Positions 13,910-30,772 of a DNA stretch of 64,000 bases are shown one piece after another. The translations under genes and the position numbers were made by a program. The notes beneath the pieces were generated by a model. That model was not told where the DNA came from and ran no database searches. It saw only the letters and a list, made by a program, of their open reading frames with translations. Source of the DNA: Pseudonocardia sulfidoxydans NBRC 16205 (GTDB lineage Bacteria > Actinomycetota > Actinomycetes > Mycobacteriales > Pseudonocardiaceae). How positions within the stretch are numbered: position 1 is the first letter of the stretch; the number at the start of each line of letters is the position of its first letter. The stretch lies in the NCBI RefSeq assembly GCF_007989085.1, contig NZ_BJVJ01000031.1, positions 1 through 64,000 of the forward strand, in the 5' to 3' direction.

Positions 13910-13939
13910 TTGACCTGTGTCCCGCGCCCTCACTAGGGT
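13910..13939 (+). promoter_or_regulatory. Promoter of the aldehyde dehydrogenase gene
   Basis: TTGACC (13910-13915), 18-bp spacer, TAGGGT (13934-13939). The LacI-type operator at 13944-13957 begins five bases after the -10 element, a classic repressor position. The same layout is found before the CoA-transferase and the cupin gene. Confidence 0.55.
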
Positions 13940-13943
13940 CGAC

Positions 13944-13957
13944 GCGAAACGTTTATA
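13944..13957. promoter_or_regulatory. LacI-type operator before the aldehyde dehydrogenase
   Basis: GCGAAACGTTTATA with the AAACGTTT palindromic core typical of LacI/GalR-family operators. Related sites (GAAAC-N-N-TTC form) lie at 17777, 17957, 21836, 22046 and 22205. Likely ligand: the LacI-type regulator at 19815-20840. Confidence 0.55.
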
Positions 13958-14009
13958 TGCTGGCGGCAGCTGACGCCGCCCCTCCCTGCCCACCAACCGA
14001 GGAGCCACG

Positions 14010-15437
14010 ATGCCGAACGCCGACCGCTTCTACATCGGGGGCGAGTGGGTGGCCCCCACGACAACCGCCACGACGGGCATCGTCGACCCGTCCACCGAAC
14101 AGGAGATCGGCCGCGTCGCCCTCGGTGGCGCCGCCGACGTCGACCACGCCGTCGCCGCCGCCCGCGCCGCCTTCCACACCTTCTCCGAGACCACCGTGGC
14201 CGAGCGGGCCGCCCTGCTCGACCGCGTCGTCGAGGTCTACCAGGCCCGCTCCGCCGACATCGCCGACGCCCTGATGGCCGAGATGGGCGCCCCGGCAGGT
14301 CTCGCCCACACCGCGCAGATCGGCGCCGGGCTGGGCCAGTTCGCCTCCGCACTCGACACCCTGAAGAACTTCGCGTTCGAGGAGACCCGCGGCACCACCC
14401 GCATCCGCCACGAACCGATCGGGGTCTGCGGTCTGATCACGCCGTGGAACTGGCCGCCGCTGCTGATCGCGGCCAAGGTCGGACCGGCACTGGCCGCAGG
14501 CTGCACGATGGTGCTCAAACCCTCCGAGCTCGCACCGCTCAACGCCGTCGTCATCGCAGAGATCCTGCACGAGGCGGGGGTGCCCGCCGGAGTGTTCAAC
14601 CTCGTCCACGGCGACGGCCCGACCGTCGGCGCCGCCCTCGCCGCACACCCGGACGTCGACATGATCTCGTTCACCGGTTCCACCCGGGCCGGGATCGAGG
14701 TCGCCCGCAACGCCGCCCCGACGGTCAAACGCGTGGCGCAGGAGCTCGGCGGCAAGTCCGCCAACATCATCCTCGACGACGCCGACCTCGCGACCGTCGT
14801 GCCCCGCGACATGGGCGACGTCGTCGCCAACTCCGGACAGTCGTGCAACGCGGGCAGCAGATGGCTGGTCCCCGAGTCGAAGCTGGAGGAAGTCGTCGCG
14901 CTCGCCAAGACCGCCGCCGAGGCGATCGTCGTCGGCCCGCCCGCCCGCGACGGCGTGACCATCGGGCCGGTCGTCTCACAGGCCGCGTACGACAAGGTGC
15001 AGCGACTGATCACCGGCGCCCTCGACGAGGGCGCGACGATCGTCGCCGGCGGGCCCGGCCGCCCGGACGGGCTCGACACCGGGTACTTCGTCCGGCCCAC
15101 CGTGCTCGCCGGCGTCACCAACGACATGCAGATCGCCCGCGAGGAGATCTTCGGGCCGGTCATCACGATCTCGACCTACCGCGACGAGGACGAGGCCGTC
15201 CGGCTGGCCAACGACACCGAGTACGGGCTCGCCGGCTTCGTGTCCTCGGCCGACCCGGAGCGGGCCCGGTCCATCGCCCGACGCATGCGGACCGGGATGG
15301 TGCACGTCAACGGCGCAGGTCTCGACTTCGCCGGCGCCTTCGGCGGCTACAAGCAGTCGGGCAACGGCCGCGAGTACGCCGACTTCGGCCTGCGGGAGTT
15401 CCTGGAGGTCAAGTCGGTCTTCGGCTACTCCACCTGA
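14010..15437 (+). CDS. NAD(P)-dependent aldehyde dehydrogenase
   Basis: 475 aa, full length for the ALDH superfamily. The cofactor-binding segment TPWNWPPLLIAAKVGPALAAGC, general-base Glu in ELGGKSANII and catalytic Cys in NSGQSCNAGSR are all intact, as is the C-terminal EEIFGPVITI. The ATG at 14010 follows GAGGAG. It stands alone in transcription but carries the same LacI-type operator as the two operons at 18-31 kb, so it is probably one of two aldehyde dehydrogenases of that pathway, oxidising for example a dialdehyde or glutarate semialdehyde (inference). The exact substrate cannot be read. Confidence 0.9.
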   Translation: MPNADRFYIGGEWVAPTTTATTGIVDPSTEQEIGRVALGGAADVDHAVAAARAAFHTFSETTVAERAALLDRVVEVYQARSADIADALMAEMGAPAGLAHTAQIGAGLGQFASALDTLKNFAFEETRGTTRIRHEPIGVCGLITPWNWPPLLIAAKVGPALAAGCTMVLKPSELAPLNAVVIAEILHEAGVPAGVFNLVHGDGPTVGAALAAHPDVDMISFTGSTRAGIEVARNAAPTVKRVAQELGGKSANIILDDADLATVVPRDMGDVVANSGQSCNAGSRWLVPESKLEEVVALAKTAAEAIVVGPPARDGVTIGPVVSQAAYDKVQRLITGALDEGATIVAGGPGRPDGLDTGYFVRPTVLAGVTNDMQIAREEIFGPVITISTYRDEDEAVRLANDTEYGLAGFVSSADPERARSIARRMRTGMVHVNGAGLDFAGAFGGYKQSGNGREYADFGLREFLEVKSVFGYST

Positions 15438-15449
15438 CCACCCCGAGCG

Positions 15450-15551
15450 CAACCTCACTGCTCTCCGAGCCCCTTTGGAGGACCGTGAGGTTGCGCGCCC
15501 GTTGGGGGCGACCGTGAGGTTGCACTCGTTGTGAGGCGACCGTGAGGTTGC
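15450..15551. repeat. GTGAGGTTGC repeat cluster
   Basis: CAACCTCAC (15450-15458) pairs with GTGAGGTTG (15485-15493), directly after the aldehyde dehydrogenase stop, so it could act as a terminator. GACCGTGAGGTTGC then recurs at 15514 and 15542, giving three direct copies 28-29 bp apart. Related elements are at 16278, 16475-16534, 46064 and 50789-50846. Confidence 0.7.
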
Positions 15552-15702
15552 GCCCGTTGTGAGGGCGGCCGCCCGGGGCTCCGGTCACCGCGCGGGTTGT
15601 CCGGTCGCAGCGCGGCTTGTCCCGTCACCGCGCGGGTTGTGGGCCGTGTTCTGACAGTGCAACCCGCGCGCTGATCGCAGGGCGTGGGTGACGACCCTGC
15701 GG

Positions 15703-16642: not shown

Positions 16643-17764
16643 TCAGCGGGGGCGGGCCGGTGGGGCCGAGAGGTAGCGGGCGGGGGTCGCCGAGAGCCGG
16701 ATCGGGTTGCGGGTGAGGTCGACCGTCGTGCCGTCGGGGCGAGGCAGGGCGACGAGCGGGTCGAGGCCCAGTGCCTCGGCGAGCCGGAAGGCACCGGCGA
16801 CGTCGTTCACGACACCAGCCGGTACCCCTGCATCGGTGAGGCGGGCGGCCCATGATGCCGCGGGCGCCTGCCGGAGCCGCTCACCCAGCGCCGCGGCGAG
16901 CTCGGCGCGGTGGGCGACACGGTCGCTGTTGGTGGCGAACCGGGGGTCGTCGGCGAGGCGGTCGAGACCCAGCACGACACACAGCGAGCGGAACTGACGG
17001 TCGTTGCCGACGGCGAGCGCGAGGTCGCGGTCGGCGCAGCGCAGGAGTTCGTAGGGCGCGATGCTGGGGTGCCGGTTGCCGAGCCGGTCGGGGACCACCC
17101 CGGCGACCGTGAAGGCCGATCCCTGGTTGACCAGCGCCGCGAGCAGGCTCGACAGCAGGTCCACCTCGACGCGCTGTCCCTCGCCGGTGGCGTCGCGGTG
17201 GCGCAGCGCGGCGAGGATGCCGACGGTCGCGAAGAGGCCGGCGAGGACGTCGACGAGCGCGACGCCGACCTTCTGCGGTTCGCCGTCGGGTTCCCCGGTG
17301 ATGCTCATCAGCCCGCCGACGGCCTGGACGAGCAGGTCGTAGCCGGGCAGCGCGGCCCCGGCCCCGGCGCCGAACCCGGTGACGGAGCAGTACACGAGGC
17401 GGGGGTTGGCGGCGCACAGGTCGTCGGCGCCGAGGCCGAGGCGGTCCATGACGCCGGGCCGGAAGTTCTCGACGACGATGTCGGCGTCGACGGCGGCGGC
17501 GCGGGCGGTGGCGCGGTCGGTGGGATCGGCGAGGTCCCAGGCGACGGAGGTCTTGTTGCGGTTGACGGACTGGAAGTAGGTGGCGTCGCCGCGGTCGTCG
17601 TGGGGCGGGCCCCAGGCGCGGGTGTCGTCGCCGGTTCCGGGGCGTTCGACCTTGACGACGGTGGCGCCGAGGTCGGCGAGCATCATCGTGGCGAAGGGTC
17701 CCGCGAGGACGCGTGAGAAGTCCAGGACGGTGAGGGGGCCCAGCGCGGTGGGCGGGGTCGACAT
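16643..17764 (-). CDS. CaiB/BaiF-family (class III) CoA-transferase
   Basis: 373 aa. N-terminal LTVLDFSRVLAGPFATMMLADLGATVVKVE and RNKTSVAWDL, central ENFRPGVMDRLGLG and PGYDLLVQAVGGLMSITG, and GEGQRVEVDLLSS are diagnostic of formyl-CoA/succinyl-CoA-type class III transferases. The length is in the usual range. The ATG at 17764 follows GGAGG. The promoter (TTGACG, 18 bp, TACGGT) is followed by a LacI-type operator. Together with the glutaryl-CoA-dehydrogenase-like gene of the same putative regulon, a succinyl-CoA:glutarate CoA-transferase role is likely (inference). Confidence 0.88.
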   Translation of the reverse strand: MSTPPTALGPLTVLDFSRVLAGPFATMMLADLGATVVKVERPGTGDDTRAWGPPHDDRGDATYFQSVNRNKTSVAWDLADPTDRATARAAAVDADIVVENFRPGVMDRLGLGADDLCAANPRLVYCSVTGFGAGAGAALPGYDLLVQAVGGLMSITGEPDGEPQKVGVALVDVLAGLFATVGILAALRHRDATGEGQRVEVDLLSSLLAALVNQGSAFTVAGVVPDRLGNRHPSIAPYELLRCADRDLALAVGNDRQFRSLCVVLGLDRLADDPRFATNSDRVAHRAELAAALGERLRQAPAASWAARLTDAGVPAGVVNDVAGAFRLAEALGLDPLVALPRPDGTTVDLTRNPIRLSATPARYLSAPPARPR

Positions 17765-17776
17765 CGCACCTCCGAT

Positions 17777-17926: not shown

Positions 17927-17966
17927 TTGACCGCGTGCTGAGACGGCGGCAGACTAGAAACGAATC
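17927..17966 (+). promoter_or_regulatory. Promoter and LacI-type operator of the cupin-led operon
   Basis: TTGACC (17927-17932), 17-bp spacer, CAGACT (17950-17955), then operator GAAACGAATC (17957-17966). The rest of this 304-bp interval (17765-18068) is the divergent promoter region; nothing else was seen in it. Confidence 0.5.
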
Positions 17967-18068: not shown

Positions 18069-18536
18069 GTGACGGACCACGACCCGACCGCCCCCAACGC
18101 GCGTCGGTTCCCGCGGGTGATCGTGCCCGACGAGATCGACAAGATGCCCGTGCTGACGTTCAACGACGGGATCACGACGAACATCTTCCTGTCGCGGGAG
18201 CGTGACGACGCCCGCTTCTTCCGGCACGGCTACTGCTACGGCGAACCCGACCACCTGCCCTACCAGTGGGAGCAGCGCGACTTCGACGAGACGCACTACG
18301 TCCTCGAGGGCCACATCCACCTCGTGGTCGAGGACGCCGTGGGCCGCACGATCGTGCTGGAAGCGGGCGTCGGGGAGCACATCTACCTGCCCGCCGGCTA
18401 CACCTACCGGCTCGAGTGCACCGGGGTGTCCTACAAGTTCTTCTGGACGTCGGGGCCGTCACCGAAGGTCGGTGTCGCCGACGCGCCCGACTACAGCCGC
18501 GAGCTCACGGCGCTGCGCGTCTCCGAGGGGAGCTGA
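18069..18536 (+). CDS. Cupin-domain protein
   Basis: 155-aa single-domain cupin. Motif 1 is spread over THYVLEGHIHLVVED, with acidic and His ligands, and motif 2 over GEHIYLPAGYTYRLE, resembling EutQ-like metal-binding cupins. The GTG start at 18069 follows AGAGAGGAG. It is the first gene of a five-gene + strand operon with a PPOX/FDOR-type flavoprotein, a GATase1-like protein, a LacI regulator and a ribokinase. A metal-dependent hydrolase, isomerase or dioxygenase role on a ring-opened intermediate is possible but not shown by the sequence. Confidence 0.8.
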   Translation: MTDHDPTAPNARRFPRVIVPDEIDKMPVLTFNDGITTNIFLSRERDDARFFRHGYCYGEPDHLPYQWEQRDFDETHYVLEGHIHLVVEDAVGRTIVLEAGVGEHIYLPAGYTYRLECTGVSYKFFWTSGPSPKVGVADAPDYSRELTALRVSEGS

Positions 18537-18538
18537 TC

Positions 18539-19054
18539 ATGGCCGTCACCGCGAGCACCTGGCAGCCGTTGCGGGGCGACAAGCGTTGGGCCTACCTGGC
18601 CCGGGCGAAGACGATCCGGATCGCGACGGCGAACGAGGACGGCAGCATCTACCTGTCGCCGCTGTGGCACGTCGTCCACGAGAAGCGGATCTTCATCCCG
18701 ATCGACGCGGCGTCGCGCCACGGCGCGAACGTCACCGCAGGTCGTCCGTTGTCGGCCCTGGTCGACCAGGGTGAGGAGTACGCGACGGTGAGCGGCGTCC
18801 GGATCACCGGGACGATGCGGCCGATCGACGACGACGCGCTGGCGGAGACGTTGGCGCAGTTGCTGTTCGACAAGTACTTCCACGTCGGTCACCCGTACGC
18901 GGAGCAGTACCTGGAGTTCGGCGCGGTGGCGGGCCGGACGTACTACGAGCTGGTGCCCGACCGGATGATCGGCTGGGACATGCGGGAGATCAACGTGATC
19001 GCGATGCCGGAGGCCAGGGTGCTCCCGGACCACGTCGGGGACCGGCTCCTGTGA
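18539..19054 (+). CDS. PPOX/FDOR-type split-barrel flavin or F420 reductase
   Basis: 171 aa. AYLARAKTIRIATANEDGSIYLSPLWHVV, IFIPIDAASRHGANVTAGRPLSALV-type strands and VSGVRITGTMRPID match the pyridoxamine-phosphate-oxidase / F420-dependent-reductase fold. FDOR members reduce unsaturated substrates with F420H2. An F420-dependent glucose-6-phosphate-dehydrogenase-like gene sits in the neighbouring operon, so an F420H2-using reductase is an attractive reading, but FMN binding is equally possible. It starts at 18539, two bases after the cupin stop; its end overlaps the next GTG (GTGA). Confidence 0.75.
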   Translation: MAVTASTWQPLRGDKRWAYLARAKTIRIATANEDGSIYLSPLWHVVHEKRIFIPIDAASRHGANVTAGRPLSALVDQGEEYATVSGVRITGTMRPIDDDALAETLAQLLFDKYFHVGHPYAEQYLEFGAVAGRTYYELVPDRMIGWDMREINVIAMPEARVLPDHVGDRLL

Positions 19055-19803
19055 GCGGCCTGCGGGTGCTGTTCGCGGGCGAGTCCTGGATCAAGCACAC
19101 GATCCACATGAAGGGCTTCGACCAGTTCCACAACACCGAGTACGAGGAGGGCGCGGGCGAGTTCCTCGCCGCGCTCGACCGTGAGGGCTTCCGGGTCACC
19201 TACGTCCGCGGGCACGAGATCTCGGCCCGGTTCCCGCGCTCGGCCGCGGAGCTCGACGAGTTCGACGTCGTCGTCCTCTCCGACATCGGGTCCAACTCGT
19301 TCCTGTTGCCCGACGAGACGTTCCTGCGCTCGGAGCGCAGCGCGAACCGGCTCGCGGTGCTGCGCGACTGGACGCGCGCGGGCGGCGGGCTGGTGATGAT
19401 CGGCGGGTACATGTCGTTCACCGGGATCGAGGGCAAGGCCCGCTTCGGGATGACACCGTTGGCCGACGTCCTGCCCGTGCGGATGCTCGACCACGACGAC
19501 CGGATCGAGGAGTCCGCGGGCGTCAAGGCGGACTTCGACGAGCCCGCGCACCCGGTCCTGGGCGGGACCCCCGCGGAGTGGCCGCCGCTGCTCGGGTACA
19601 ACCGTGTGGTCGCGAAACCGGACGCGACGACCGTGGCACGTGCGGGGGACGACCCCCTGCTGGTCGTCGGGCCGGCGGGCGAGGGCCGTTCCGTCGCGTT
19701 CGCCTCGGACCTGGCGCCGCACTGGGCGCCACCGGAGTTCGTCGGATGGCCGCACTACCAGAGACTGTGGGCGTCCATCCTCGGCTGGGCGGCCGGCGCC
19801 TGA
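19051..19803 (+). CDS. Class I glutamine-amidotransferase-like protein (GATase1_like)
   Basis: 250 aa. LRVLFAGESWIKHTIHMKGFDQF opens the fold. HEISARFPRSAAELDEFDVVVLSDIGSNSF and GGGLVMIGGYMSFTGIEGKARFG are typical of the cytoplasmic GATase1-like family (PF07090 group), which lacks the standard glutaminase nucleophile elbow. GTG start with a 4-base overlap to the PPOX gene. Function unknown; in this operon it could hydrolyse a C-N bond of a ring-opened intermediate (speculative). Length is normal for the family. Confidence 0.7.
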   Translation: MSGLRVLFAGESWIKHTIHMKGFDQFHNTEYEEGAGEFLAALDREGFRVTYVRGHEISARFPRSAAELDEFDVVVLSDIGSNSFLLPDETFLRSERSANRLAVLRDWTRAGGGLVMIGGYMSFTGIEGKARFGMTPLADVLPVRMLDHDDRIEESAGVKADFDEPAHPVLGGTPAEWPPLLGYNRVVAKPDATTVARAGDDPLLVVGPAGEGRSVAFASDLAPHWAPPEFVGWPHYQRLWASILGWAAGA

Positions 19804-19814
19804 GGAGGTCTGCC

Positions 19815-20840
19815 GTGGTGTCACGCCGTCGGCCCACGATGAAGGACGTCGCGGAGCACGCGAACGTCTCGATCAGCACGGTCAGCTACGTGCTGAACGA
19901 CAGCGGCCCCGTCGCCGCCGAGCGTCGCAACCGGGTGCTCGACGCGATCCGGTTGCTCGACTATTCCCCCAACGAGTCCGCGCGCAGCCTGAAGCGGCGC
20001 TCGGCGTCGACCGTCGCGATGGTCGTGCCCGACCTGACCAACCAGTTCTTCGCGATGGTCGCCGAGGGGGTGCACCGGGCCGCGTCCGCGGTCGACGTGC
20101 TGGTCGTTCTCGTGCTGCCCGACGCCACGGAGCTCCCCGAGGAGAGCCAGGCGAAGCTGCTGCGCAGCCAGCGTGTCGACGGCGTGATCTACCTGTCCGG
20201 TACCGGGTCGATGCCCGCGGCGATCTACGACCTCGCCCGGTCGGGCCCGGTCGTGCTGGTCGACGAGCAGATCCCGGGCCGTGACCTGCCTGCGGTGGTG
20301 TGCGACTCGCGGCGCGGCGGCCGTGAGGTCGCCGCGCACGTACTGGCCCAGGACCACCGCCGGCTCGCCGTCGTCGGCGGCCCGCCCGCGCTGTGGACGG
20401 CGCAGCAGCGTCTCGCCGGCTACCGCGAGGCCTTCGCGGGCGCGGGTATCGACCCCGACTCGGTCCCCGTGTTCGCCGGCGACTACCGGCAGGAGTCGGG
20501 GTACGCCGCGGCCACGGAGATCCTGTCCCGGCCCGAGTCCGAGCGGCCGACGGCGTTGTTGTGCGCCAACGACCTGATGGCGATCGGCGCGATGCAGTGC
20601 CTGCGCGACAACGGGCTGAGCGTCCCCGGCGACATGAGCGTCGCCGGCTTCGACGACCAGCCGATCTCCAGCATGCTCACACCCGCGCTCACCAGCGTGC
20701 GCCAGCCGGCCTACGACATGGGTCATCGGGCCGCGCGCGTCCTGTTCGACCTGCTGGAGGGCAGGGAGCCCGACACCACGGGCCCGCTGCCCGCCGAGGT
20801 CCGCATCCGCGACAGCGTCGGCCCACCGAAGGAGCTGTGA
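19815..20840 (+). CDS. LacI-family transcriptional regulator
   Basis: 341 aa. The helix-turn-helix TMKDVAEHANVSISTVSYVLN with hinge YSPNESARSLKRR is followed by a periplasmic-binding-protein-like effector domain (VVPDLTNQFFAMVAEGV, CANDLMAIGAMQCLRDNG, VPGDMSVAGFDDQPIS). The GTG at 19815 follows GAGGAGG. It is embedded in the operon and, by position and motif type, the best candidate to bind the GAAACG-type operators at 13944, 17777, 17957, 21836, 22046 and 22205. The effector may be ribose, a nucleoside or a pathway intermediate. The ribokinase gene overlaps its stop by one base. Confidence 0.9.
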   Translation: MVSRRRPTMKDVAEHANVSISTVSYVLNDSGPVAAERRNRVLDAIRLLDYSPNESARSLKRRSASTVAMVVPDLTNQFFAMVAEGVHRAASAVDVLVVLVLPDATELPEESQAKLLRSQRVDGVIYLSGTGSMPAAIYDLARSGPVVLVDEQIPGRDLPAVVCDSRRGGREVAAHVLAQDHRRLAVVGGPPALWTAQQRLAGYREAFAGAGIDPDSVPVFAGDYRQESGYAAATEILSRPESERPTALLCANDLMAIGAMQCLRDNGLSVPGDMSVAGFDDQPISSMLTPALTSVRQPAYDMGHRAARVLFDLLEGREPDTTGPLPAEVRIRDSVGPPKEL

Positions 20841-21796
20841 TGACTGCCGACGACATCGTGGTCGTCGGCGCGGTCAACGTCGACATGGTGGTGACCGCGC
20901 CACAGCTGCCCGGCCCCGGCGAGACCGTCGTGGGCCCCGGCATGCGCCGCCACGGCGGCGGCAAGGGCGCCAACGCGGCCGTCGCGGCGGCCCGGTCGGG
21001 CGGAACCGTGCACTACGTCGGCGCGGTCGGCGACGACGACCTCGGCGCGACCGCGCTGCGTGAGCTCGAGGCCGACGGTGTCGGCACCGACGACGTGGCG
21101 GTGGTCGCGCAGGAGGCGACCGGTGTCGCGCTGATCGTCGTCGACGAGGCGGGTGAGAACCAGATCGCGGTCGGCGCGGGGGCCAACGGACGGCTCGGCG
21201 CGGACGTCGTCGAGGCGGCGCTGCGGCGTCGGCTCCCCACCGCCGGGTGCGTGCTGGTCAGCACCGAGGTGCCCGGCGCCGCGGTCGCAGCGGCGGTACG
21301 TGCCGCGACCGCGGCGGGGGTGCGGTGCGTGCTCAACCCTGCGCCGGTGATCCCGGTCGTCGTGGAGCTGCTCGACCTCGGCCCGGTGCTGACGCCGAAC
21401 ACGGGCGAGCTGTTCGCGCTGGCGGCCGCCGCGGGCAGCGGCCCGCCGCCCTCGCGGGCCTCGCCGAGCTGCAAGGAGATCCTGACGTGCGCGCAGGCCC
21501 TCGTCGGCAGGACGCGCGCGCCGGTGCTGGTGACGCTCGGCGGCGACGGCGTCCTCGTCGTCGACAGCGACGGGACGTCGCGGCACGTCGCGCCGCTGTG
21601 GGTCGAGGTCCGTGACACGACCGGGGCGGGCGACACCTTCAACGGCGTCCTCGCCAGGGAGTTGGCCGCGGGCCGGCGGCTCGACGAGGCGGCCCGGGTG
21701 GCGACGGTGGCAGCGGGGCTGTCGGTGACGGCCGTCGGCGCCAGGAACGGGATGCCGACAGCGACGGAGCTTGCCGCGGCCGCGGCGGGCGCGTAG
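20840..21796 (+). CDS. rbsK: PfkB-family sugar kinase, ribokinase-like
   Basis: 318 aa. The first PfkB signature is GGGKGANAAVAAARSG after NVDMVVTAPQLPGPGET; the second is DTTGAGDTFNGVLA with the catalytic Asp. NPAPVIP and TPNTGELFAL are ribokinase-like. It should phosphorylate ribose (or a related sugar) to ribose 5-phosphate, which the PRPP synthetase in the next operon could use. It starts at 20840 within the TGATGA junction of the LacI gene. The substrate is inferred from family and context. Confidence 0.85.
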   Translation: MTADDIVVVGAVNVDMVVTAPQLPGPGETVVGPGMRRHGGGKGANAAVAAARSGGTVHYVGAVGDDDLGATALRELEADGVGTDDVAVVAQEATGVALIVVDEAGENQIAVGAGANGRLGADVVEAALRRRLPTAGCVLVSTEVPGAAVAAAVRAATAAGVRCVLNPAPVIPVVVELLDLGPVLTPNTGELFALAAAAGSGPPPSRASPSCKEILTCAQALVGRTRAPVLVTLGGDGVLVVDSDGTSRHVAPLWVEVRDTTGAGDTFNGVLARELAAGRRLDEAARVATVAAGLSVTAVGARNGMPTATELAAAAAGA

Positions 21797-21835: not shown

Positions 21836-21845
21836 GAAACGATTC
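21836..21845. promoter_or_regulatory. LacI-type operator O1 before the NAMPT operon
   Basis: GAAACGATTC within TGGAAACGATTCTG, 40 bp after the ribokinase stop. It could also impede read-through from the upstream operon. It matches the consensus of the six sites. Confidence 0.5.
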
Positions 21846-22030: not shown

Positions 22031-22058
22031 TTGACGGTCACACTAGAAACGTTAACAT
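22031..22058 (+). promoter_or_regulatory. Promoter with embedded LacI-type operator O2, NAMPT operon
   Basis: TTGACG (22031-22036), 16-bp spacer, TAACAT (22053-22058). The operator AGAAACGTTAAC (22045-22056) overlaps the spacer and -10, so a bound repressor would block the polymerase. A further site, GAAACGACTC at 22205-22214, lies just before the ribosome binding site. Confidence 0.5.
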
Positions 22059-22204: not shown

Positions 22205-22214
22205 GAAACGACTC
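22205..22214. promoter_or_regulatory. LacI-type operator O3 before the NAMPT start
   Basis: GAAACGACTC within TAGAAACGACTCTC, 20 bp before the NAMPT start codon. Weaker match on its right arm than O1 and O2. With three sites spread over 370 bp, repression by looping is possible. Confidence 0.4.
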
Positions 22215-22234
22215 TCGCGGAAGGTGAAGTGCCG

Positions 22235-23730: not shown

Positions 23731-23778
23731 GGAACGCCGCCGTGACACGACCCCCCTCCCGTGCCGCGGCGGCGTTCC
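23731..23778 (+). terminator. Strong hairpin between NAMPT and the HAD gene
   Basis: GGAACGCCGCCG (23731-23742) pairs perfectly with CGGCGGCGTTCC (23767-23778) across a 24-nt loop; a smaller CCGACC/GGTCGG stem precedes it. It lies inside an otherwise tight operon, so it may be a partial terminator or an mRNA-stabilising structure that sets NAMPT above the downstream genes. Confidence 0.55.
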
Positions 23779-23805
23779 CTCCGACCAACGGGGAGAAAGC
23801 CGCCG

Positions 23806-24444
23806 ATGACTCACCTGCACGTCTTCGACATGGACGGGACCCTCCTGCGCGGTGCCGGGTCCGTGGAGCTCGCCCGGCACCTGGGCACGTTCGAGGCCGC
23901 CGACCGGATCGAACGGGCATGGGGCCGTGGCGAGATCACCGACGTCCAGTTCTGGGAGCGGATGCTGCCACTGTGGGCCGACGTCTCCGAGGAGGAGATC
24001 GACGCGGCGTTCGCGGCGTCGGCATGGATCGACGGGGTCCGCGAGGTGTTCGCCGACATCACCGAACGCGGCGAGCACGTCGCGGTGATCTCGCAGTCGC
24101 CGCACTTCTTCGTCCGCAGGCTCGAGGCGTGGGGCGCCCACCGGACCTTCGGCTCCGACGTGGTGCCGCTGCGGGAGGCCCGCAAGGAGCACCTGCTCAC
24201 GCTGCAGCACAAGGTCGACATCACGCTGCGGCTGCTCGACGAGCTCGGCCTCGACGAGACCGACGCCGTCGCCTACGGCGACTCGACGTCCGACACCCTG
24301 CTGTTCGCGCACCTCACCCACACCGTCGGGGTCAACTGCTCGGAGGTGCTGCGCCGCCACGCGGCGGTCTGTTTCGAGGGCGACGACATCCGCGGCGCGT
24401 ACGCGCTGGGCCGCCGGCTGCTGGAACAGGAGCCGGCCAGGTGA
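23806..24444 (+). CDS. HAD-superfamily (IB-type) phosphatase
   Basis: 212 aa. Motif I DMDGTLLRG, motif II region VAVISQSPHFFV, and motif III/IV YGDSTSDTLLF are complete, so it should be an active phosphohydrolase of the SerB-like subgroup. In this operon it may dephosphorylate a ribotide or ribose phosphate, feeding the nucleoside hydrolase/ribokinase side branch (inference). The ATG at 23806 follows GGGGAGAAAG; its stop overlaps the PRPP synthetase GTG. Confidence 0.85.
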   Translation: MTHLHVFDMDGTLLRGAGSVELARHLGTFEAADRIERAWGRGEITDVQFWERMLPLWADVSEEEIDAAFAASAWIDGVREVFADITERGEHVAVISQSPHFFVRRLEAWGAHRTFGSDVVPLREARKEHLLTLQHKVDITLRLLDELGLDETDAVAYGDSTSDTLLFAHLTHTVGVNCSEVLRRHAAVCFEGDDIRGAYALGRRLLEQEPAR

Positions 24445-25457
24445 GCAGCGTCGTCGAGACACCCGGCACCCACTGCATGCACCTCGGCTACCGCAAGCGG
24501 CTCATGCTCTTCTCCGGCCGCGCCAACCCCGCGCTGGCCGACGCCATCGGCCGTGAGCTCGGCGTCGGGCTCGGCTCGGTCACGCTGAAGACCTTCTCCA
24601 ACGACGAGGTGTACTGCCGCTTCACCGAGTCCATCCGCGGCGCCGACGTCTTCATCGTGCAGCCCATGTGCGGCAACCCGGCGACGGGCGTCAACACCAA
24701 CGACGCCCTCCTCGAGCTCCTCGTCATGATCGACGCGGCCGTCGGCGCCAGCGCGCACCGGGTCATCGCCGTGACGCCCTGGTACGGCTACTCCCGGCAG
24801 GACAAGAAGTCCGAGGCGCGGGAGCCGATCTCGGCGCGGCTGGTGGCGCGGATGCTGGAGTCCGCGGGCGTGGACCGGGTCCTGACGATGGACCTGCACG
24901 CCGGCCAGCTGCAGGGCTTCTTCGCCCGCCCCGTCGACCACATGACGTCGCTGATGATGCTGGCCGACCACTTCGCGGGCCTCGACGACGACCTCGTCGT
25001 GGTCGCACCCGACGCCGGGCGGGTCAAGCTCAACAAACAGTTCGCGACGCGCATGGGCGCGGGCCTGGCCATCCTCGACAAGGAACGCCCGGCGCAGCAG
25101 GTCGCCGAGATCGGGCACGTCATCGGCGACGTCCGCGGGAAGACCGCCATCATCGTCGACGACATCATCGACACCGCCGGAACGTTGCGCGCCGCGGGCG
25201 AGGCCGTCGTCGCGGCCGGAGCGCGCCGGGTGTTCGCCGCCGCGACCCACGCCGTGCTCTCGGGCCGGGCCGCCGAGAACCTGGCCGCGGCACCGTTCGA
25301 ACGGATCGTCGTCACCGACACGATCCCGTTGCGGCCCGGCGTCCCCGACAACGTCCACGTCGTGTCGTGCGCGCCGCTGCTCGCCGCGACGATCCGCCGC
25401 ATCTTCACCGACGAGTCGGTGAGCGAGGTCTTCGGCGGCAAGAACCACCTCTTCTGA
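24441..25457 (+). CDS. prs: Ribose-phosphate pyrophosphokinase (PRPP synthetase)
   Basis: 338 aa. It makes PRPP from ribose 5-phosphate and ATP. FSGRANPALADAIGRELG, FSNDEVYCRFTESIRGADVF, the flexible-loop/ATP region WYGYSRQDKKSEAREPISARLVA and the PRPP-binding loop IIVDDIIDTAGTL are all present. The GTG at 24441 overlaps the HAD stop (GTGA); an ATG at 24477 is an alternative start. A second, dedicated PRPP synthetase beside a PRPP-consuming NAMPT implies high flux through phosphoribosylation. Whether the chromosome has another prs gene cannot be seen here. Confidence 0.9.
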   Translation: MSSVVETPGTHCMHLGYRKRLMLFSGRANPALADAIGRELGVGLGSVTLKTFSNDEVYCRFTESIRGADVFIVQPMCGNPATGVNTNDALLELLVMIDAAVGASAHRVIAVTPWYGYSRQDKKSEAREPISARLVARMLESAGVDRVLTMDLHAGQLQGFFARPVDHMTSLMMLADHFAGLDDDLVVVAPDAGRVKLNKQFATRMGAGLAILDKERPAQQVAEIGHVIGDVRGKTAIIVDDIIDTAGTLRAAGEAVVAAGARRVFAAATHAVLSGRAAENLAAAPFERIVVTDTIPLRPGVPDNVHVVSCAPLLAATIRRIFTDESVSEVFGGKNHLF

Positions 25458-25489: not shown

Positions 25490-26530
25490 ATGCCCTCGTC
25501 CGGTCTGGTCGCCACCGGCGACGTCCGCATCGGCTACAAGGCCTCCGCCGAGCAGTTCGGGCCTCGTGAGCTGGTCGAGTTCTCGGTCGAGGCCGAGGAC
25601 CGCGGCCTCGACATCGTCGCCGTGTCGGACCACTTCCAGCCGTGGCGCCACCGCGGCGGGCACGCTCCCAATGCCCTGACCTGGCTCGGTGCCGTCGGCG
25701 CGTCGACCTCACGGGCCGTGCTCGCCACGAGCGTCCTGACGCCGACGCTGCGCTACCACCCGTCGATCGTCGCGCAGGCCTTCGGCACCCTCGCGGTCCT
25801 CAACCCGGGTCGGGTGGTTCTGGGGATCGGGTCGGGCGAGGCGATGAACGAGACCCCGGCGACCGGTGCGCAGTTCCCCGGGCCGAAGGAACGCCGGATG
25901 CGGATGGCCGAGGCCGTCACGCTGATGCGCAGGCTGTGGACCGAGGACCGCGTCGACTTCGACGGCACGTACTACCGCACCGAGAAGGCGACGGTCTACG
26001 ACCGGCCCGAGCAGCCCGTCCCCGTCTATCTGGCGGCGTCGGGCCCGCTCGCGGCCAAGCTCGCCGGGCGGGTCGGCGACGGGTTCATCTGCACGTCGGG
26101 CAAGGACCCCGAGCTGTACCGGACGCTGCTCGCCAACGTGGCCGAGGGCGCCGCCCAGGCCGGCCGCGACCCCGGCGACCTGCGCCGGATGATCGAGATC
26201 AAGGTGTCCTACGACCGCGACCTCGACACCGCATACACGAACTGCCACTGGTGGGCGGCACTCGCGCTCAGCTCCGAGCAGAAGACCGGGGTCGAGGACG
26301 CCGTCGAGATGGAACGCCTCGCCGACGCCAACGCCGACAAGGCCCACACCCGGTTCATCGTCTCCGACGACCCCGAGGACGTCGTCGAGCGCATCGGTGC
26401 CTATCTCGACCTCGGGTTCACCGACCTGGTGCTGCACGGGCCGGGCGGGGACCAGCACCGGTTCCTCGAGCAGTTCTGCGTCGACGTGCTGCCCGGACTG
26501 CGGGAACGCGCGAAGGCGGCGACGGCGTGA
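25490..26530 (+). CDS. fgd: F420-dependent glucose-6-phosphate dehydrogenase-like (Fgd1-type LLM) enzyme
   Basis: 346 aa. It is very like mycobacterial Fgd1 over its whole length: GYKASAEQFGPRELVE, SDHFQPWRHRGGHAP with the active-site His and Trp, GSGEAMNE with the catalytic Glu, DGFICTSGKDPELY with the phosphate-binding Lys, and DLVLHGPGGDQHRFLE. One Fgd1 phosphate-site Lys (in MEK) is Arg here (MER). It should oxidise a sugar phosphate (glucose 6-phosphate or perhaps a pentose phosphate) and supply F420H2, possibly to the PPOX/FDOR-type protein at 18539. The ATG at 25490 follows GGGAAGGA; the next gene overlaps by GTGA. Confidence 0.85.
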   Translation: MPSSGLVATGDVRIGYKASAEQFGPRELVEFSVEAEDRGLDIVAVSDHFQPWRHRGGHAPNALTWLGAVGASTSRAVLATSVLTPTLRYHPSIVAQAFGTLAVLNPGRVVLGIGSGEAMNETPATGAQFPGPKERRMRMAEAVTLMRRLWTEDRVDFDGTYYRTEKATVYDRPEQPVPVYLAASGPLAAKLAGRVGDGFICTSGKDPELYRTLLANVAEGAAQAGRDPGDLRRMIEIKVSYDRDLDTAYTNCHWWAALALSSEQKTGVEDAVEMERLADANADKAHTRFIVSDDPEDVVERIGAYLDLGFTDLVLHGPGGDQHRFLEQFCVDVLPGLRERAKAATA

Positions 26531-27993
26531 CCGGCCCTGTCGCGCTGCGCAGCCTCGTCGGCGGCACCTGGGTGGACCCCGACGGCCCGGAGATCGTCGA
26601 CGTCGACCCGGCCCGCCCGTGTGAGATCGTCGCGACCGGTCACCTCGCGGGTGCCCCCGAGATCGAGGAGGCCGTGCGGGCCGCCGTCGGTGCCGCCGCG
26701 TCCTGGGCGGCGACGCCGTTCCCGGTCCGCGGCGAGATCCTGGCCCGGGCCGCCACCGTCCTGGAAGCCCACGCCGACGAGTGGGGCACCGAACTGTGCC
26801 GGGAGGAGGGCAAGACCCGCGCGGAAGGGATCGGCGAGGTCCGCCGGGCCGCGGAGATCCTGCGGTTCCACGGGTCGGCCGGGCTGCGCCCGGTCGGCGA
26901 GGTCTACGCCTCACCGCGTCCCGACGAGCAGATCCAGGTCGTGCGCCGCCCGGTCGGCCCCGTCGCCGTCGTGACACCGTTCAACTTCCCGATCGCGATC
27001 CCGGCGTGGAAGATCGCGCCCGCCCTCGCCTACGGCAACCCCGTCGTCTGGAAGCCGGCGAGCGCGGTCCCGCTGCTCGCGATGCGGCTCGCGGAGGCGC
27101 TCGTCGAGGGCGGGCTGCCGCCGGGCGTGCTGTCGCTGCTGCTCATCGGCAACACCGATGCGCCCGCGCTGCTGGAACATCCGGGCATCCGGCGCGTCAC
27201 GTTCACCGGGTCGACCACGGTCGGGCGGCGGATCATCGCCCGCTGCGGCGAGCTGGCCCGCCCGGTGCAGACCGAGATGGGCGGCAAGAACGCCGCCGCC
27301 GTCCTCGCCGACGCCGACCTCGACCTGGCCGTCGACCAGATCGTCGCCGGGGCGTTCCGCTCGACCGGACAGAAGTGCACGGCGACCTCACGCGTGATCG
27401 TCACCGACGCGGTCGCCGAGGACTTCCTCGACCGGCTCGTCCGCCGGGTCGCGACGATCCGCGTCGGCGACCCGGGTGCCGACGGCACCGACATGGGGCC
27501 GCTCGTCTCCCCCGCCGCTCGCGACGAGGTCCAGGCCGCCGTCGACGCCGCCGGCACGCGCGCCGGCGTCCGCCTGCTCTGCGGCGGCGCTCCCTACACC
27601 GACGAGCGCGCCGGGGGCGCCTACCTGGCGCCGACCGTCGTCGAACTCGACGGCGACGACGCCCTGTGGCGTGACGAGCTGTTCGGGCCCGTCCTCGCCG
27701 TGCGGCGCGCCGCCACCGACCTCGAAGCGCTGCAGCTGGTGAACGACAGCGTGTTCGGGCTGTCGGCGGCCGTGTTCACGAACGGGCTCGACGCCGTCGC
27801 GGCGGCCGTCGCGACGCTCGACGTCGGTGTCCTGCACGTCAACTCCGAGACCGCGGGCGCCGACCCGCACGTGCCGTTCGGCGGGGCCAAGGACAGCGGC
27901 TTCGGCCCGAAGGAGCAGGGCGTCGCCGCCCGCGAGTTCTTCACGACGACGACCACCGTCTACCTCCGGCCCGCCCGGCAGCTCGCCCCGTGA
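26527..27993 (+). CDS. Aldehyde dehydrogenase (second of the regulon)
   Basis: 488 aa. VTPFNFPIAIPAWKIAPALAYGN, the catalytic Glu in TEMGGKNAAAVL and Cys in STGQKCTATSR are intact; it resembles the ketoglutarate-semialdehyde/succinate-semialdehyde group. GTG start inside the stop of the F420 enzyme and GTG overlap with the acyl-CoA dehydrogenase, so strict translational coupling. Together with the gene at 14010 this gives two aldehyde oxidations, as needed to turn a C5 dialdehyde into glutarate (inference). Confidence 0.9.
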   Translation: MTGPVALRSLVGGTWVDPDGPEIVDVDPARPCEIVATGHLAGAPEIEEAVRAAVGAAASWAATPFPVRGEILARAATVLEAHADEWGTELCREEGKTRAEGIGEVRRAAEILRFHGSAGLRPVGEVYASPRPDEQIQVVRRPVGPVAVVTPFNFPIAIPAWKIAPALAYGNPVVWKPASAVPLLAMRLAEALVEGGLPPGVLSLLLIGNTDAPALLEHPGIRRVTFTGSTTVGRRIIARCGELARPVQTEMGGKNAAAVLADADLDLAVDQIVAGAFRSTGQKCTATSRVIVTDAVAEDFLDRLVRRVATIRVGDPGADGTDMGPLVSPAARDEVQAAVDAAGTRAGVRLLCGGAPYTDERAGGAYLAPTVVELDGDDALWRDELFGPVLAVRRAATDLEALQLVNDSVFGLSAAVFTNGLDAVAAAVATLDVGVLHVNSETAGADPHVPFGGAKDSGFGPKEQGVAAREFFTTTTTVYLRPARQLAP

Positions 27994-29189
27994 CCGCCAC
28001 CCGCACTGGAGACCCGCCGATGCCCGTCATGACCGACCCGCTGGACCTGCTGGCGGTGTCCGCGCTGCTCACCGAGGAGGAGCGCGACATCCGGCGCACG
28101 GTGCGCGAGTTCCTCGACGACCACGCCCGCCCCCACGTCGCGGGCTGGTTCGAGGCCGCGACGTTCCCGCGCGAGCTGGTGCCGGAGCTGGGCAAGCTCG
28201 GCCTGCTCGGCATGCACCTCGACGGCTACGGCTGCGCAGGCACGAGCGCCGTCTCCTACGGGCTGGCGTGCCTGGAGCTGGAGGCGGTCGACTCGGGGCT
28301 GCGCAGCTTCGTCTCGGTGCAGGGATCGTTGTCGATGTACTCGATCCACCGCTGGGGCTCCGAGGAGCAGAAGCAGGAGTGGCTGCCGCGGCTCGCCGCG
28401 GGCGAGGCGATCGGCTGCTTCGGCCTCACCGAGCCCGACTCGGGGTCCGACCCCGGGTCGATGCGCACCCACGCGGTACGCGACGGCGGCGACTGGGTGC
28501 TCGACGGGTCGAAGATGTGGATCACCAACGGCGGGCTCGCCGACGTCGCGACCGTCTGGGCACGGACCGACGACGGCATCCGCGGCTTCCTCGTCCCCCG
28601 CGGCACCCCCGGGTTCACCACGACCGACGTCGGCCACAAGCTGTCGCTGCGCGCGTCGGTGACCTCCGCGCTGAGCCTCGACGGCGTCCGGCTCCCGGCG
28701 TCGGCGATGCTGCCGCAGGCACGCGGGCTGCGCGGCCCGCTGTCGTGCCTGAACGAGGCCCGGTTCGGCATCCTGTTCGGCGCGGTCGGCGCCGCCCGCG
28801 ACTGCCTCGCCACCGCGCTCGACTACGCCGACACCCGGGTCCAGTTCGGACGGCCGATCAGCGCGTTCCAGCTGACCCAGAAGAAGCTGGCCGACATGGC
28901 GGTCTCGCTCAACACCGCCGCCCTGCTGGCGCTGCACCTCGGAAAGCTCAAGGACCGGGGCGAGCTGCGGCCCGAGCAGGTCAGCGTCGGCAAGCTCAAC
29001 AACGTGCGCGAGGCGATCGCGATCGCCCGCGAGTGCCGCACGATCCTGGGCGGCAACGGGATCTCCGGTGAGTACCCGCCGCTGCGGCACGCGGCGAACC
29101 TGGAGTCCGTGCGGACCTACGAAGGCACCGACGAGGTGCACACCCTCGTCATCGGCGAAACCCTGACCGGCCGGGCGGCGTACCGGTGA
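27990..29189 (+). CDS. gcdH: Glutaryl-CoA dehydrogenase-like acyl-CoA dehydrogenase
   Basis: 399 aa. The whole chain resembles human glutaryl-CoA dehydrogenase: DSGLRSFVSVQGSL keeps the Arg (R105) that grips the distal carboxylate, GCFGLTEPDSGSDPGSM, WITNGGLADVATVWAR, FGRPISAFQLTQKKLADM, GGNGISGEY and catalytic E378 in TYEGTDEVH. It should convert glutaryl-CoA to crotonyl-CoA, CO2 and reduced FAD. GTG start overlapping the aldehyde dehydrogenase stop. With the CaiB-type transferase it defines a glutarate-degrading end of the pathway. Confidence 0.88.
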   Translation: MTATRTGDPPMPVMTDPLDLLAVSALLTEEERDIRRTVREFLDDHARPHVAGWFEAATFPRELVPELGKLGLLGMHLDGYGCAGTSAVSYGLACLELEAVDSGLRSFVSVQGSLSMYSIHRWGSEEQKQEWLPRLAAGEAIGCFGLTEPDSGSDPGSMRTHAVRDGGDWVLDGSKMWITNGGLADVATVWARTDDGIRGFLVPRGTPGFTTTDVGHKLSLRASVTSALSLDGVRLPASAMLPQARGLRGPLSCLNEARFGILFGAVGAARDCLATALDYADTRVQFGRPISAFQLTQKKLADMAVSLNTAALLALHLGKLKDRGELRPEQVSVGKLNNVREAIAIARECRTILGGNGISGEYPPLRHAANLESVRTYEGTDEVHTLVIGETLTGRAAYR

Positions 29190-29214
29190 CCGGCCACGAG
29201 CGGAGGAGACCGCG

Positions 29215-29805
29215 ATGACCGACATCAGGAGCCTGTGCGTGTTCTGCGGCTCCAACACCGGGCGCGACCCCGCGTTCCTCGCCGGGGCCCAGCGGCTCGG
29301 CACGCTGCTGGGCAGCGAGAACATCACTCTCGTCTACGGCGGCGCGAGCGTCGGCACCATGGGCGCGCTGGCCGACGCCACGCTCGCGGCGGGCGGACAG
29401 GTGCACGGCGTCATCCCCCGTCAACAGCTCGGCGACGAGATCGCCCACGAGGGCCTGACGCAGCTGCACGTCGTCGAGTCCATGCACGAACGCAAGGCGC
29501 TCATGGGCGAGCTGGCCGACGGGTTCGTCGCGCTGCCCGGCGGGCTCGGGACGTTGGAGGAGTTCGCCGAGGTGCTCACGTGGTCGCAGCTCGGCCTGCA
29601 CGCCAAGCCGACGGGCCTGCTCGACACGGCCGGCTACTACGCGGACTTCCTGCGGTTCCTCGACCACGCCGTCGACGAGGGATTCGTGCGCCCCGCCGAC
29701 CGTGGCATCGTGCTGTCCGGGACCGATCCGGCCACACTGCTGACACGGATGCGGGCGTGGGAGCCGGCGCAGGACCAGCGCTGGGAACCCGTCGAGAGCC
29801 CGTGA
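29215..29805 (+). CDS. LOG-family nucleotide 5'-monophosphate phosphoribohydrolase
   Basis: 196 aa. CVFCGSNTGRDPAF, the hallmark PGGLGTLEEFAEVLTWSQLG, and VYGGASVGTMGALADATLAAGG are complete. LOG proteins release a free base and ribose 5-phosphate from nucleoside monophosphates. In an operon with NAMPT and PRPP synthetase the natural role would be to recover ribose 5-phosphate from a pyridine ribotide or its breakdown product (inference), not cytokinin synthesis. The ATG at 29215 follows GGAGGAG. Confidence 0.85.
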   Translation: MTDIRSLCVFCGSNTGRDPAFLAGAQRLGTLLGSENITLVYGGASVGTMGALADATLAAGGQVHGVIPRQQLGDEIAHEGLTQLHVVESMHERKALMGELADGFVALPGGLGTLEEFAEVLTWSQLGLHAKPTGLLDTAGYYADFLRFLDHAVDEGFVRPADRGIVLSGTDPATLLTRMRAWEPAQDQRWEPVESP

Positions 29806-29836
29806 CCGGACCGGACACGCCGCGAGGAGGCCGTCG

Positions 29837-30772
29837 TTGCCCGTCCCGATGATCATCGACACCGACCCCGGGGTGGACGACGCGTTCGCGATCGTCCTCG
29901 CCCTGTGCAGCCCCGAGGTCGACGTGCGCGCCGTCGTCGCGACCTACGGCAACGTCGGCCGGGAGCAGACGTTCACGAACCTGCGGCGCATCCTCGCGCT
30001 CGCCGGGCGGTCCGACGTCCCCGCTGCCGCCGGGTCGATCCGCCCGCTCGTGCACCCGCAGGCCGAGACGGCGCCGGACTGGCACGGCGTCGACGGCCTC
30101 GGGCTGCGCGGCGACGAGTTCCCCGAGCCCGGCCCCGCCGACCCACGCCAGGGCGTCGACCTCATGGCCGACGTGCTGCTCACCGCCGCCGAGCCCGTCA
30201 CGCTGGTCTGCCTCGGGCCGTTCACCGACGCCGCGTTGCTGCTCGCGACCAGGCCCGACCTCGTGCCGCGGCTGGGCCGGATCGTCGCCATGGGCGGCTC
30301 GTTCGGCGCGGGCAACACCCGGGGAGCGGGCGAGTTCAACGTCTACGCCGACCCCGAGGCCGCCCACCGCGTCCTGACCCAGCACGACGTGCCCGTCACG
30401 CTCGTCCCGCTGGACCTCACGATGGCCGCCCGCGTCGACGGTGCGTGGCTCGACGACCTCGCGCTCGCCGGACCGCGCACGGAGGTGCTGGTGCGCACCG
30501 CCCGGCTCTACCGGGACACGTTCGTCGAGCGGCACGGCCACGACTCCGTCGCCCTCCACGACACCCTCGCCGTCCTGGAGGCCGTGGTCCCGGGGAGCCT
30601 GCGCACCAGCCCGTTCCCGCTCGCGGTCGCCTGCTCCCAGGGCGCCGAGCGCGGGGTCACGGTCATCGACCGCCGGACCGAGGCGGGCGGTCCCCCGGTG
30701 GCCGTCGCGCTGGACGCCGACGTCGCCGCCGTGACCGCCGAGGTGGGACGCCGGATCCGCGCGCTCGGCTGA
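29837..30772 (+). CDS. Inosine-uridine-type nucleoside hydrolase
   Basis: 311 aa. The calcium-binding N-terminus IIDTDPGVDDAFAIVLAL, NVGREQTFTNLRRILALAG and ADPEAAHRVLTQHDVPVTLVPLDLT, plus HDSVALHDTLAV, define the IunH family. It cleaves N-ribosidic bonds to base and ribose. The TTG at 29837 is preferred because GAGGAGG lies six bases before it; the next ATG is too far. Last gene of the NAMPT operon. Its ribose product would feed the ribokinase at 20840. Confidence 0.88.
   Translation: MPVPMIIDTDPGVDDAFAIVLALCSPEVDVRAVVATYGNVGREQTFTNLRRILALAGRSDVPAAAGSIRPLVHPQAETAPDWHGVDGLGLRGDEFPEPGPADPRQGVDLMADVLLTAAEPVTLVCLGPFTDAALLLATRPDLVPRLGRIVAMGGSFGAGNTRGAGEFNVYADPEAAHRVLTQHDVPVTLVPLDLTMAARVDGAWLDDLALAGPRTEVLVRTARLYRDTFVERHGHDSVALHDTLAVLEAVVPGSLRTSPFPLAVACSQGAERGVTVIDRRTEAGGPPVAVALDADVAAVTAEVGRRIRALG

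Follow-up and report, generated by a model that had tools for sequence, protein, structure and literature searches.

Gene content and recurrence of the cluster

The gene cluster analysed here belongs to Pseudonocardia sulfidoxydans NBRC 16205 (6.58-Mb genome, 73% GC) and is contained in positions 1 to 64,000 of contig NZ_BJVJ01000031.1; this whole 64,000-nucleotide stretch is referred to as the window. A first-pass annotation made from the sequence had read 15 gene families at 13910..30772 as a regulon for pyridine catabolism initiated by phosphoribosylation and controlled by one set of LacI-type operators. All 15 families were recovered at 13.9-30.8 kb of the window with Pfam, the cupin by weak matches only (Table 1). 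We consider it rather probable that these genes form a regulon by which soil bacteria catabolise pyridine, or a compound very close to it, after activating the ring through phosphoribosylation.

The gene overlaps described in the first-pass annotation measure 1-4 bases and occur at FDOR/GATase1-like, LacI/PfkB, HAD/PRPP synthetase (PRPP, phosphoribosyl pyrophosphate), Fgd (LLM family)/aldehyde dehydrogenase (ALDH) 2 and ALDH 2/glutaryl-CoA dehydrogenase. Active sites that had been called intact were compared with 24 self-written motif patterns, 21 of which matched, among them DMDGT of the HAD phosphatase, the catalytic Cys of the ALDHs, RS.VSVQ and TYEGT of glutaryl-CoA dehydrogenase, PGGxGTxxE of LOG, DTDPGxDD of the nucleoside hydrolase and GAGD of ribokinase; the three misses (G.GGLL in NAMPT, ELGGK in ALDH 2 and W[AS]...P in the LLM protein) are taken as poorly written patterns. 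With the thresholds applied, one NAMPT and two PRPP synthetases were found in the genome, one of the latter inside the cluster and the other elsewhere. An F420 ligase is encoded on another contig, so the host can probably make F420.

Table 1. Genes and predicted operator cores of the cluster (window positions; occurrence counted within the fetched stretch of 69 loci).
Feature	Coordinates	Strand	Evidence	Loci
ALDH 1	14010..15437	+	Pfam Aldedh 2.8e-152; BADH/SSADH-like, below all NCBIfam cut-offs	19/69
CaiB/CoA_transf_3 (CoA-transferase family III)	16643..17764	-	Pfam	17/69
Cupin	18069..18536	+	Pfam matches weak, under gathering cut-offs	36/69
FDOR/PNPOx, split-barrel, proposed F420H2-dependent ring reductase	18539..19054	+	Pfam PNPOx_N	31/69
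GATase1_like PF07090, proposed ribose-releasing hydrolase	19051..19803	+	Pfam 4.2e-96; structural relatives 3soz/2gk3	56/69
LacI-family regulator	19815..20840	+	Pfam; nearest models CytR/RbsR, below cut-off	53/69
PfkB	20840..21796	+	Pfam; nearest model ribokinase, below cut-off	46/69
NAMPT-like phosphoribosyltransferase, altered base pocket	22229..23695	+	Pfam	
HAD-IB phosphatase	23761..24444	+	Pfam/NCBIfam	60/69
PRPP synthetase	24441..25457	+	Pfam/NCBIfam; second copy in genome	50/69
Fgd (F420-dependent glucose-6-phosphate dehydrogenase), LLM family, proposed F420H2 regeneration	25490..26530	+	TIGR03554 423.5 bits vs cut-off 420	
ALDH 2	26527..27993	+	nearest NCBIfam models C5 semialdehyde dehydrogenases, below cut-off	
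Glutaryl-CoA dehydrogenase (acyl-CoA dehydrogenase family)	27990..29189	+	3swo 1.5e-181; human GCDH 1siq 8e-115	
LOG-type phosphoribohydrolase	29215..29805	+	TIGR00730 above cut-off	
Nucleoside hydrolase	29837..30772	+	Pfam 1.7e-76	
Operator core GAAACG, LacI-type, before ALDH 1	13946..13951	+		
Operator core GAAACG, CaiB/cupin intergenic region	17957..17962	+		
Operator core GAAACG, distal upstream of NAMPT	21836..21841	+		
Operator core GAAACG, middle upstream of NAMPT	22046..22051	+		
Operator core GAAACG, proximal upstream of NAMPT	22205..22210	+		

Relatives of the window NAMPT were sought in 84,980 species genomes with peptide patterns taken from the window protein. The 66 loci obtained were combined with three plasmid loci, and these 69 loci were scored for neighbours, some of which are lost at contig ends. 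The hosts comprise actinobacteria, Pseudonocardia among them, genomes and metagenome-assembled genomes (MAGs) of alpha- and gammaproteobacteria, and one cyanobacterium; the closest relative found, at 98%, comes from Pseudonocardia sp. SCN 73-27. The genes recur together in these loci and are not scattered, the HAD phosphatase, the GATase1-like protein and LacI being the most frequent companions. NAMPT is present in 24 of 62 Pseudonocardia genomes (own genome included), and the FDOR (15 genomes), the GATase1-like protein at >=72% identity (21) and a luciferase-like monooxygenase (7; the best 32 candidates per genome were scored, and absence is not final) were found exclusively in NAMPT carriers. 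Five genomes of the genus without NAMPT hold a GATase1-like protein at 47-49%, and neither FDOR nor monooxygenase was detected in four NAMPT carriers (G003, G009, G016 and G020). A sample of 298 genomes from the order, with the best 12 candidates per genome scored and absence again not final, gave the FDOR in two, one of them the genome studied here. Twelve plasmid records carry the NAMPT clade (>=60% identity), and they coincide with the records that hold either the monooxygenase (six) or the FDOR (six others).

Base pocket of the NAMPT clade and the two cluster types

The window protein combines the Pfam domains NAMPT_N and NAPRTase and possesses the catalytic His and the PRPP-binding Arg/Asp. 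In the pocket table and the tree, from which stretches under ~380 aligned residues were excluded, His247, Arg311 and Asp313 (human NAMPT numbering) are kept in 69 of 69 rows and Asp219 in 68. The nicotinamide pocket differs from that of the human and NAD-salvage enzymes (NAD, nicotinamide adenine dinucleotide): relative to human NAMPT, Phe193 is replaced by Tyr in 68 rows, Val242 by Gly in 63, Ala244 by Asn in 65, Ser248 by Ala in 63 and Ile309 by Gly in 61, conservation that is inflated in part by the pattern-based selection, although no pattern spans 193, 242, 244 or 309. Four NAD-type outgroups carry Phe, Ile/Val, Ala, Ser and Val/Ile at positions 193, 242, 244, 248 and 309. We take D219, F193 and their neighbours to be nicotinamide contacts of human NAMPT. 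An adenylyltransferase for nicotinamide mononucleotide (NMN), NMNAT, was found beside the clade, within the fetched stretch, in 0 of 69 loci, and lies near the outgroup NAMPTs of NAD salvage (43-47% identity) in 4 of 4 cases.

Some rows depart from this picture. Rhodococcus DK176 pDK1 (L069:9813-13377) has a divergent NAMPT pocket (ADFGARG, RIDSGD), with two cupin-like matches beside the gene and two FDOR-like places in the record; this enzyme perhaps acts on another base. Four loci (L007, L008, L011 and L013) contain a second NAMPT of 57-60% identity near type B genes (defined below), in L013 together with an aldo/keto reductase, a zinc dehydrogenase and a nucleoside hydrolase.

Two cluster types were distinguished by markers that are not counted as evidence for the types: cupin or FDOR for type A, to which the window belongs, and the luciferase-like monooxygenase for type B. 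This assigned 34 of the 69 loci to type A and 16 to type B; 2 loci with both and 17 with neither marker (many cut by contig ends) were excluded from the comparison. Both types share a core of NAMPT, phosphatase, GATase1-like protein, ribokinase, PRPP synthetase and LacI. Besides its reductase and cupin, type A often encodes CaiB, glutaryl-CoA dehydrogenase and enzymes that provide F420. Of the latter, Fgd, FO synthase, CofC, CofD or CofE occurs in 14/34 type A and 0/16 type B loci, and CaiB or glutaryl-CoA dehydrogenase likewise in 14/34 against 0/16. Flavin reductase (0/34 against 7/16), NIPSNAP (0/34 against 12/16) and an amidohydrolase or phosphotriesterase-like protein (1/34 against 13/16) show the opposite distribution. 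Thus, the supply of reductant tracks the reductase and the supply of flavin tracks the monooxygenase. FO synthase, CofC, CofD and CofE are adjacent in an Acetobacteraceae MAG (L062, Pfam), the Rhodococcus DK176 plasmid cluster carries cofH, cofC, an F420 ligase and pgl, and other loci contain phosphoglucose isomerase, a 6-phosphogluconolactonase-family protein and F420 genes (Pfam). The annotated families of the window cluster include no luciferase-like monooxygenase of the type B kind and no flavin reductase, and no type B monooxygenase was found in the own genome at 1e-100 among the best 32 of 92 candidates.

On the NAMPT tree (55 of 73 rows carry a label, assigned by hand in seven cases: WINDOW, L006, L057, L007, L011, L013 and L016) the labels switch between A and B at least nine times, counted without a shuffle control, and P. 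dioxanivorans has two clusters with near-identical NAMPT. From these two observations we read that one substrate may feed two ring-opening modules.

Five paralogues of 56-64% identity, all outside the window (L055:10043-12724, L026:17287-20485, L053:8148-11434, L056:1-2800 and L058:1-2211), have an intermediate pocket that combines the EHST stretch of nicotinamide enzymes with the Tyr of the clade. All five stand beside a CinA/PncC-type NMN amidohydrolase and four of them beside a protein resembling orotidine monophosphate (OMP) decarboxylase, the L058 contig ending at the CinA gene; among 73 loci no other had a match of either kind at 1e-8. These neighbours are compatible with a possible route from nicotinamide via NMN to nicotinic acid mononucleotide (NaMN) and, by NaMN decarboxylation, to N-phosphoribosylpyridinium, which would then be a common intermediate. 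Glycine-cleavage genes (T, H and P) lie between the type A cluster and the paralogue in L026 (12718-17265).

A connection to growth on pyridine comes from a type B cluster (L067) on a plasmid of Rhodococcus sp. PD04, a strain isolated on pyridine and growing with it as sole carbon and nitrogen source (PMC11256795). The PD04 set comprises a luciferase-like monooxygenase, a flavin reductase, an aldehyde dehydrogenase, an amidohydrolase, a succinate-semialdehyde dehydrogenase and a formate dehydrogenase, and it may serve the pyridine growth of the strain. The occurrence of the cluster in known pyridine degraders, which the first-pass annotation had suggested looking for, was thereby seen for the sister type and not for the window's own type A. 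Rhodococcus pyridinivorans P23 has the same genes as PD04, with formate dehydrogenase genes alongside in both; the plasmid that bears the type B cluster of Arthrobacter crystallopoietes DSM 20117 was typed as conjugative. The type B clusters L067, L087 and L068 are located on plasmids of pyridine-associated actinobacteria. In a further study (PMC10005059), two of nine Rhodococcus strains grew on pyridine and the single strains of R. jostii and R. pyridinivorans did not, so that the species name is no proof of the trait.

The operator proposal held, with qualifications. The core GAAACG occurs seven times in the 64-kb window (both strands), five times within 902 bp of three cluster promoter regions. 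Since the motif was picked after viewing these promoters, the other loci provide the fairer test: it is found <=350 bp upstream of 51 of 68 NAMPT starts, in both cluster types and in proteobacteria, and its density there is 3.59 per kb compared to 0.36 per kb over the remainder of these loci. It also precedes the cupin (24/34), the type B monooxygenase (9/16) and ALDH 1 (8/18) in other loci. A longer operator pattern has three exact matches in the window, all inside cluster promoters, and four of nine genome-wide matches of the strict pattern fall in the cluster; the results for the whole genome and with one mismatch, detailed below, weigh against it. An initial generic palindrome had no match in the genome and was discarded. 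The predicted shared operator stands before several transcription units, as expected of a LacI regulon. Because LacI is nearest to the CytR/RbsR models, its inducer is suggested to be a ribosylated compound.

Proposed route from pyridine to crotonyl-CoA

Pyridine, a toxic ring compound, is a poor hydride acceptor, and N-phosphoribosylpyridinium resembles NAD+. F420H2 is a stronger reductant than NADH and would for this reason suit an unsubstituted pyridinium. Reduction of a pyridinium at C4 gives a bis-enamine, whose hydrolysis yields exactly glutaraldehyde and an amine, 1,4-dihydropyridine being the condensation product of these two; the C5 balance is exact for the bare pyridine ring, in agreement with the preference for unsubstituted pyridine in the first-pass annotation.

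In the proposed route the NAMPT-like enzyme would couple pyridine and PRPP to N-(5-phosphoribosyl)pyridinium (step 1), and the FDOR would use F420H2 as hydride donor to convert the charged ring into the 1,4-dihydropyridine, with Fgd recharging F420 at the expense of glucose-6-phosphate (step 2). Hydrolysis of the bis-enamine, for which the cupin is a candidate, would release glutaraldehyde and ribosylamine(-5-phosphate), the form in which the nitrogen would exit (step 3). The two ALDHs would then produce glutarate, CaiB glutaryl-CoA, and glutaryl-CoA dehydrogenase crotonyl-CoA and CO2 (step 4), while the HAD phosphatase and the GATase1-like protein would free ribose and ammonia, and ribokinase and PRPP synthetase would remake PRPP (step 5). 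LacI, as a regulator of the ribose/nucleoside-sensing kind, would repress the cluster until a ribosylated intermediate appears. Phosphoribosylation-initiated pyridine catabolism as advanced in the first-pass annotation is thus backed by the sister cluster in PD04, the NMNAT-free clade with its changed pocket, the F420 supply in type A and the glutaryl-CoA dehydrogenase relatives.

The structural model of the FDOR (mean pLDDT 84) is a split barrel with Rv2991, also matched by sequence, as best fold match and F420-bound Rv1155, MSMEG_6526 and Rv2074 at ranks 4, 7 and 20; we propose F420 as its cofactor because of the genome context, i.e. the co-occurring F420 genes, and not because of the fold. 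The cupin model (pLDDT 86) resembles EutQ and other cupins, with KdgF, which we take to be a cupin that opens sugar rings, as a distant match at rank 47. That the cupin hydrates or opens the dihydropyridine is a guess from its position beside the FDOR. The Fgd1-like enzyme was dropped as a candidate ring reductase, since it just passes the cut-off of the Fgd equivalog model TIGR03554; it most likely regenerates F420H2.

The end route through CaiB and glutaryl-CoA dehydrogenase is supported by the closest solved relatives of the acyl-CoA dehydrogenase, which are glutaryl-CoA dehydrogenases; the motifs of the substrate-binding Arg and the catalytic Glu are present, and no NCBIfam equivalog cut-off was reached (GlutCoADH_Des, 194/470 bits). 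The best NCBIfam model for CaiB, the succinate-glutarate CoA-transferase NF052585, scored 356 bits, far below its cut-off of 750. The return of ribose to PRPP, also part of the first-pass annotation, kept ribokinase and PRPP synthetase, core genes of both types, and lost LOG and the nucleoside hydrolase as essential parts, these being present in just 9 and 16 of 34 type A loci, respectively. The HAD phosphatase and the GATase1-like protein are better candidates for the release of ribose, as they are near-universal in both types (31/34 each in type A; 15/16 and 16/16 in type B).

Beyond the window, we put forward more tentatively, and with slightly less than even confidence, that N-phosphoribosylation may be a general activation of aromatic N-heterocycles, followed by F420H2 reduction towards glutaryl-CoA in type A or by flavin monooxygenase opening towards succinate and formate in type B, nicotinamide entering as a third branch via NMN, NaMN and an OMP-decarboxylase-like NaMN decarboxylase to the same N-phosphoribosylpyridinium. 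The generally accepted first reactions of aromatic catabolism are oxygenation, formation of a CoA thioester and direct reduction; priming with PRPP would be another entry, and to our knowledge sugar-phosphate priming is not a known strategy for aromatic ring breakdown. Among the literature matches listed, no paper tied phosphoribosylation or F420 to pyridine catabolism, an absence that is unproven with most subscription journals outside the coverage. If true, the proposal would provide genes for the reductive glutarate route of pyridine, reported in the 1970s (compare Watson and Cain, 1975), with which it would have the intermediates glutaraldehyde, glutarate semialdehyde and glutarate in common; we know of no work that identified the genes and first steps of that route. 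It would also explain the F420 biosynthesis genes within such proteobacterial clusters and correct the automatic NAD-biosynthesis label on these enzymes. The npd genes of picrate degradation likewise join F420H2 reduction of an electron-poor aromatic ring to clustered genes for F420 supply; nitro groups activate the ring in that case, and N-ribosylation is proposed to do so here.

Counter-evidence, alternative explanations and flanking sequence

A number of results weigh against a pyridine regulon in the window. The growth evidence concerns PD04, a type B carrier, and not type A strains. CaiB or glutaryl-CoA dehydrogenase is present in the fetched stretch of just 14/34 type A loci, PfkB in 26/34 and PRPP synthetase in 28/34, some loci being cut by contig ends. 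The window NAMPT passes the NCBIfam nicotinate phosphoribosyltransferase model NF006629 (512 vs 405 bits), and the clade retains D219, the presumed nicotinamide contact. The fold matches of the FDOR also include FMN, FAD and haem proteins, and the F420 family model TIGR03618 gave 37 bits against a cut-off of 79. The longer operator pattern with one mismatch was not enriched across the window (16 found, 16.9 expected), and the strict pattern matched nine times genome-wide compared to eight for the reversed control. The main counter-evidence concerns type B: a monooxygenase of Arthrobacter sp. 68b reportedly cleaves free pyridine directly (PyrA/PyrE; pyr study, AEM 2020). If this is right and PyrA corresponds to that of type B, another role has to be found for the NAMPT core shared by both types.

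The same logic could apply to another substrate: picoline, hydroxypyridine or some other substituted pyridine, or a different N-heterocycle, would then be the base used by NAMPT, and the glutarate branch would handle a related compound or a side product. We regard this as unlikely, yet it is the strongest of the alternatives: the pocket changes at the presumed nicotinamide contacts leave the new base undefined, the downstream genes of type A vary, as the CaiB/glutaryl-CoA dehydrogenase count illustrates, and divergent NAMPT rows (the second copy in L008, and L069) have other pockets. However, the sister cluster belongs to a strain for which pyridine itself was the isolation and growth substrate, the C5 end route fits the bare ring, and types A and B replace one another on the NAMPT tree.

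Direct attack on the ring, by the monooxygenase in type B and by reduction in type A, would leave the NAMPT/PRPP synthetase/HAD/ribokinase core merely to make the LacI inducer or to detoxify excess pyridine. The cleavage reported for strain 68b and the proximity of LacI to ribose/nucleoside repressors speak for this explanation, which we nevertheless hold to be improbable, since PRPP synthetase, ribokinase and phosphatase in most clusters suggest bulk flux over signalling and F420H2 reduction of neutral pyridine appears energetically implausible compared to that of an NAD+-like N-ribosylpyridinium. The PD04 cluster has the enzyme kinds reportedly found in the pyrA-E pathway of 68b, a likeness in kind. 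In the window, neither such a monooxygenase nor a flavin reductase is present; FDOR, cupin, Fgd and a glutarate route are combined there with the phosphoribosylation core.

Recycling of nicotinamide in an NAD-salvage operon with catabolic neighbours by chance is very unlikely and was dropped. NCBIfam, with its cut-off reached, and plasmid records label the protein a nicotinate phosphoribosyltransferase, and LOG, nucleoside hydrolase and ribokinase would fit nucleotide turnover, but no NMNAT neighbour was found in 69 loci, the clade pocket is altered, and all 12 carrier plasmids have the FDOR or the monooxygenase. The bacterial NAMPT/NMNAT salvage pair (Novosphingobium, Methylosinus plasmids) is of the same PRPP-dependent family with catalytic residues kept; the window clade is set apart from it by the missing NMNAT, the changed base pocket, its catabolic neighbours and the PRPP synthetase in the cluster. 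A biosynthetic cluster for a pyridine-nucleotide-like or F420-linked metabolite, to which the F420 biosynthesis genes in some clusters might point, is the least credible explanation given the catabolic nature of the window's glutaryl-CoA dehydrogenase and of the succinate-semialdehyde and formate dehydrogenases of PD04. A pyridine catabolic regulon initiated by phosphoribosylation remains the reading that we prefer.

In the sequence surrounding these genes, CaiB, on the opposite strand, is separated from ALDH 1 by ~1.2 kb of repeats (15440-16640), in which a 149-nt unit is present three times alongside several inverted repeats that contain GTGAGGTTGCGC; the two open reading frames checked there had no Pfam match. 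The PNPOx gene at 13187-14008 was rejected as a cluster member: of the 66 loci, only L001 and L047 show it among the matches listed at >=35% identity. It belongs to a region (8677-14008) in which a weak nitroreductase match, a universal stress protein, two PNPOx proteins and a GAF-domain histidine kinase stand side by side, a neighbourhood reminiscent of a DosS/DosR dormancy region.

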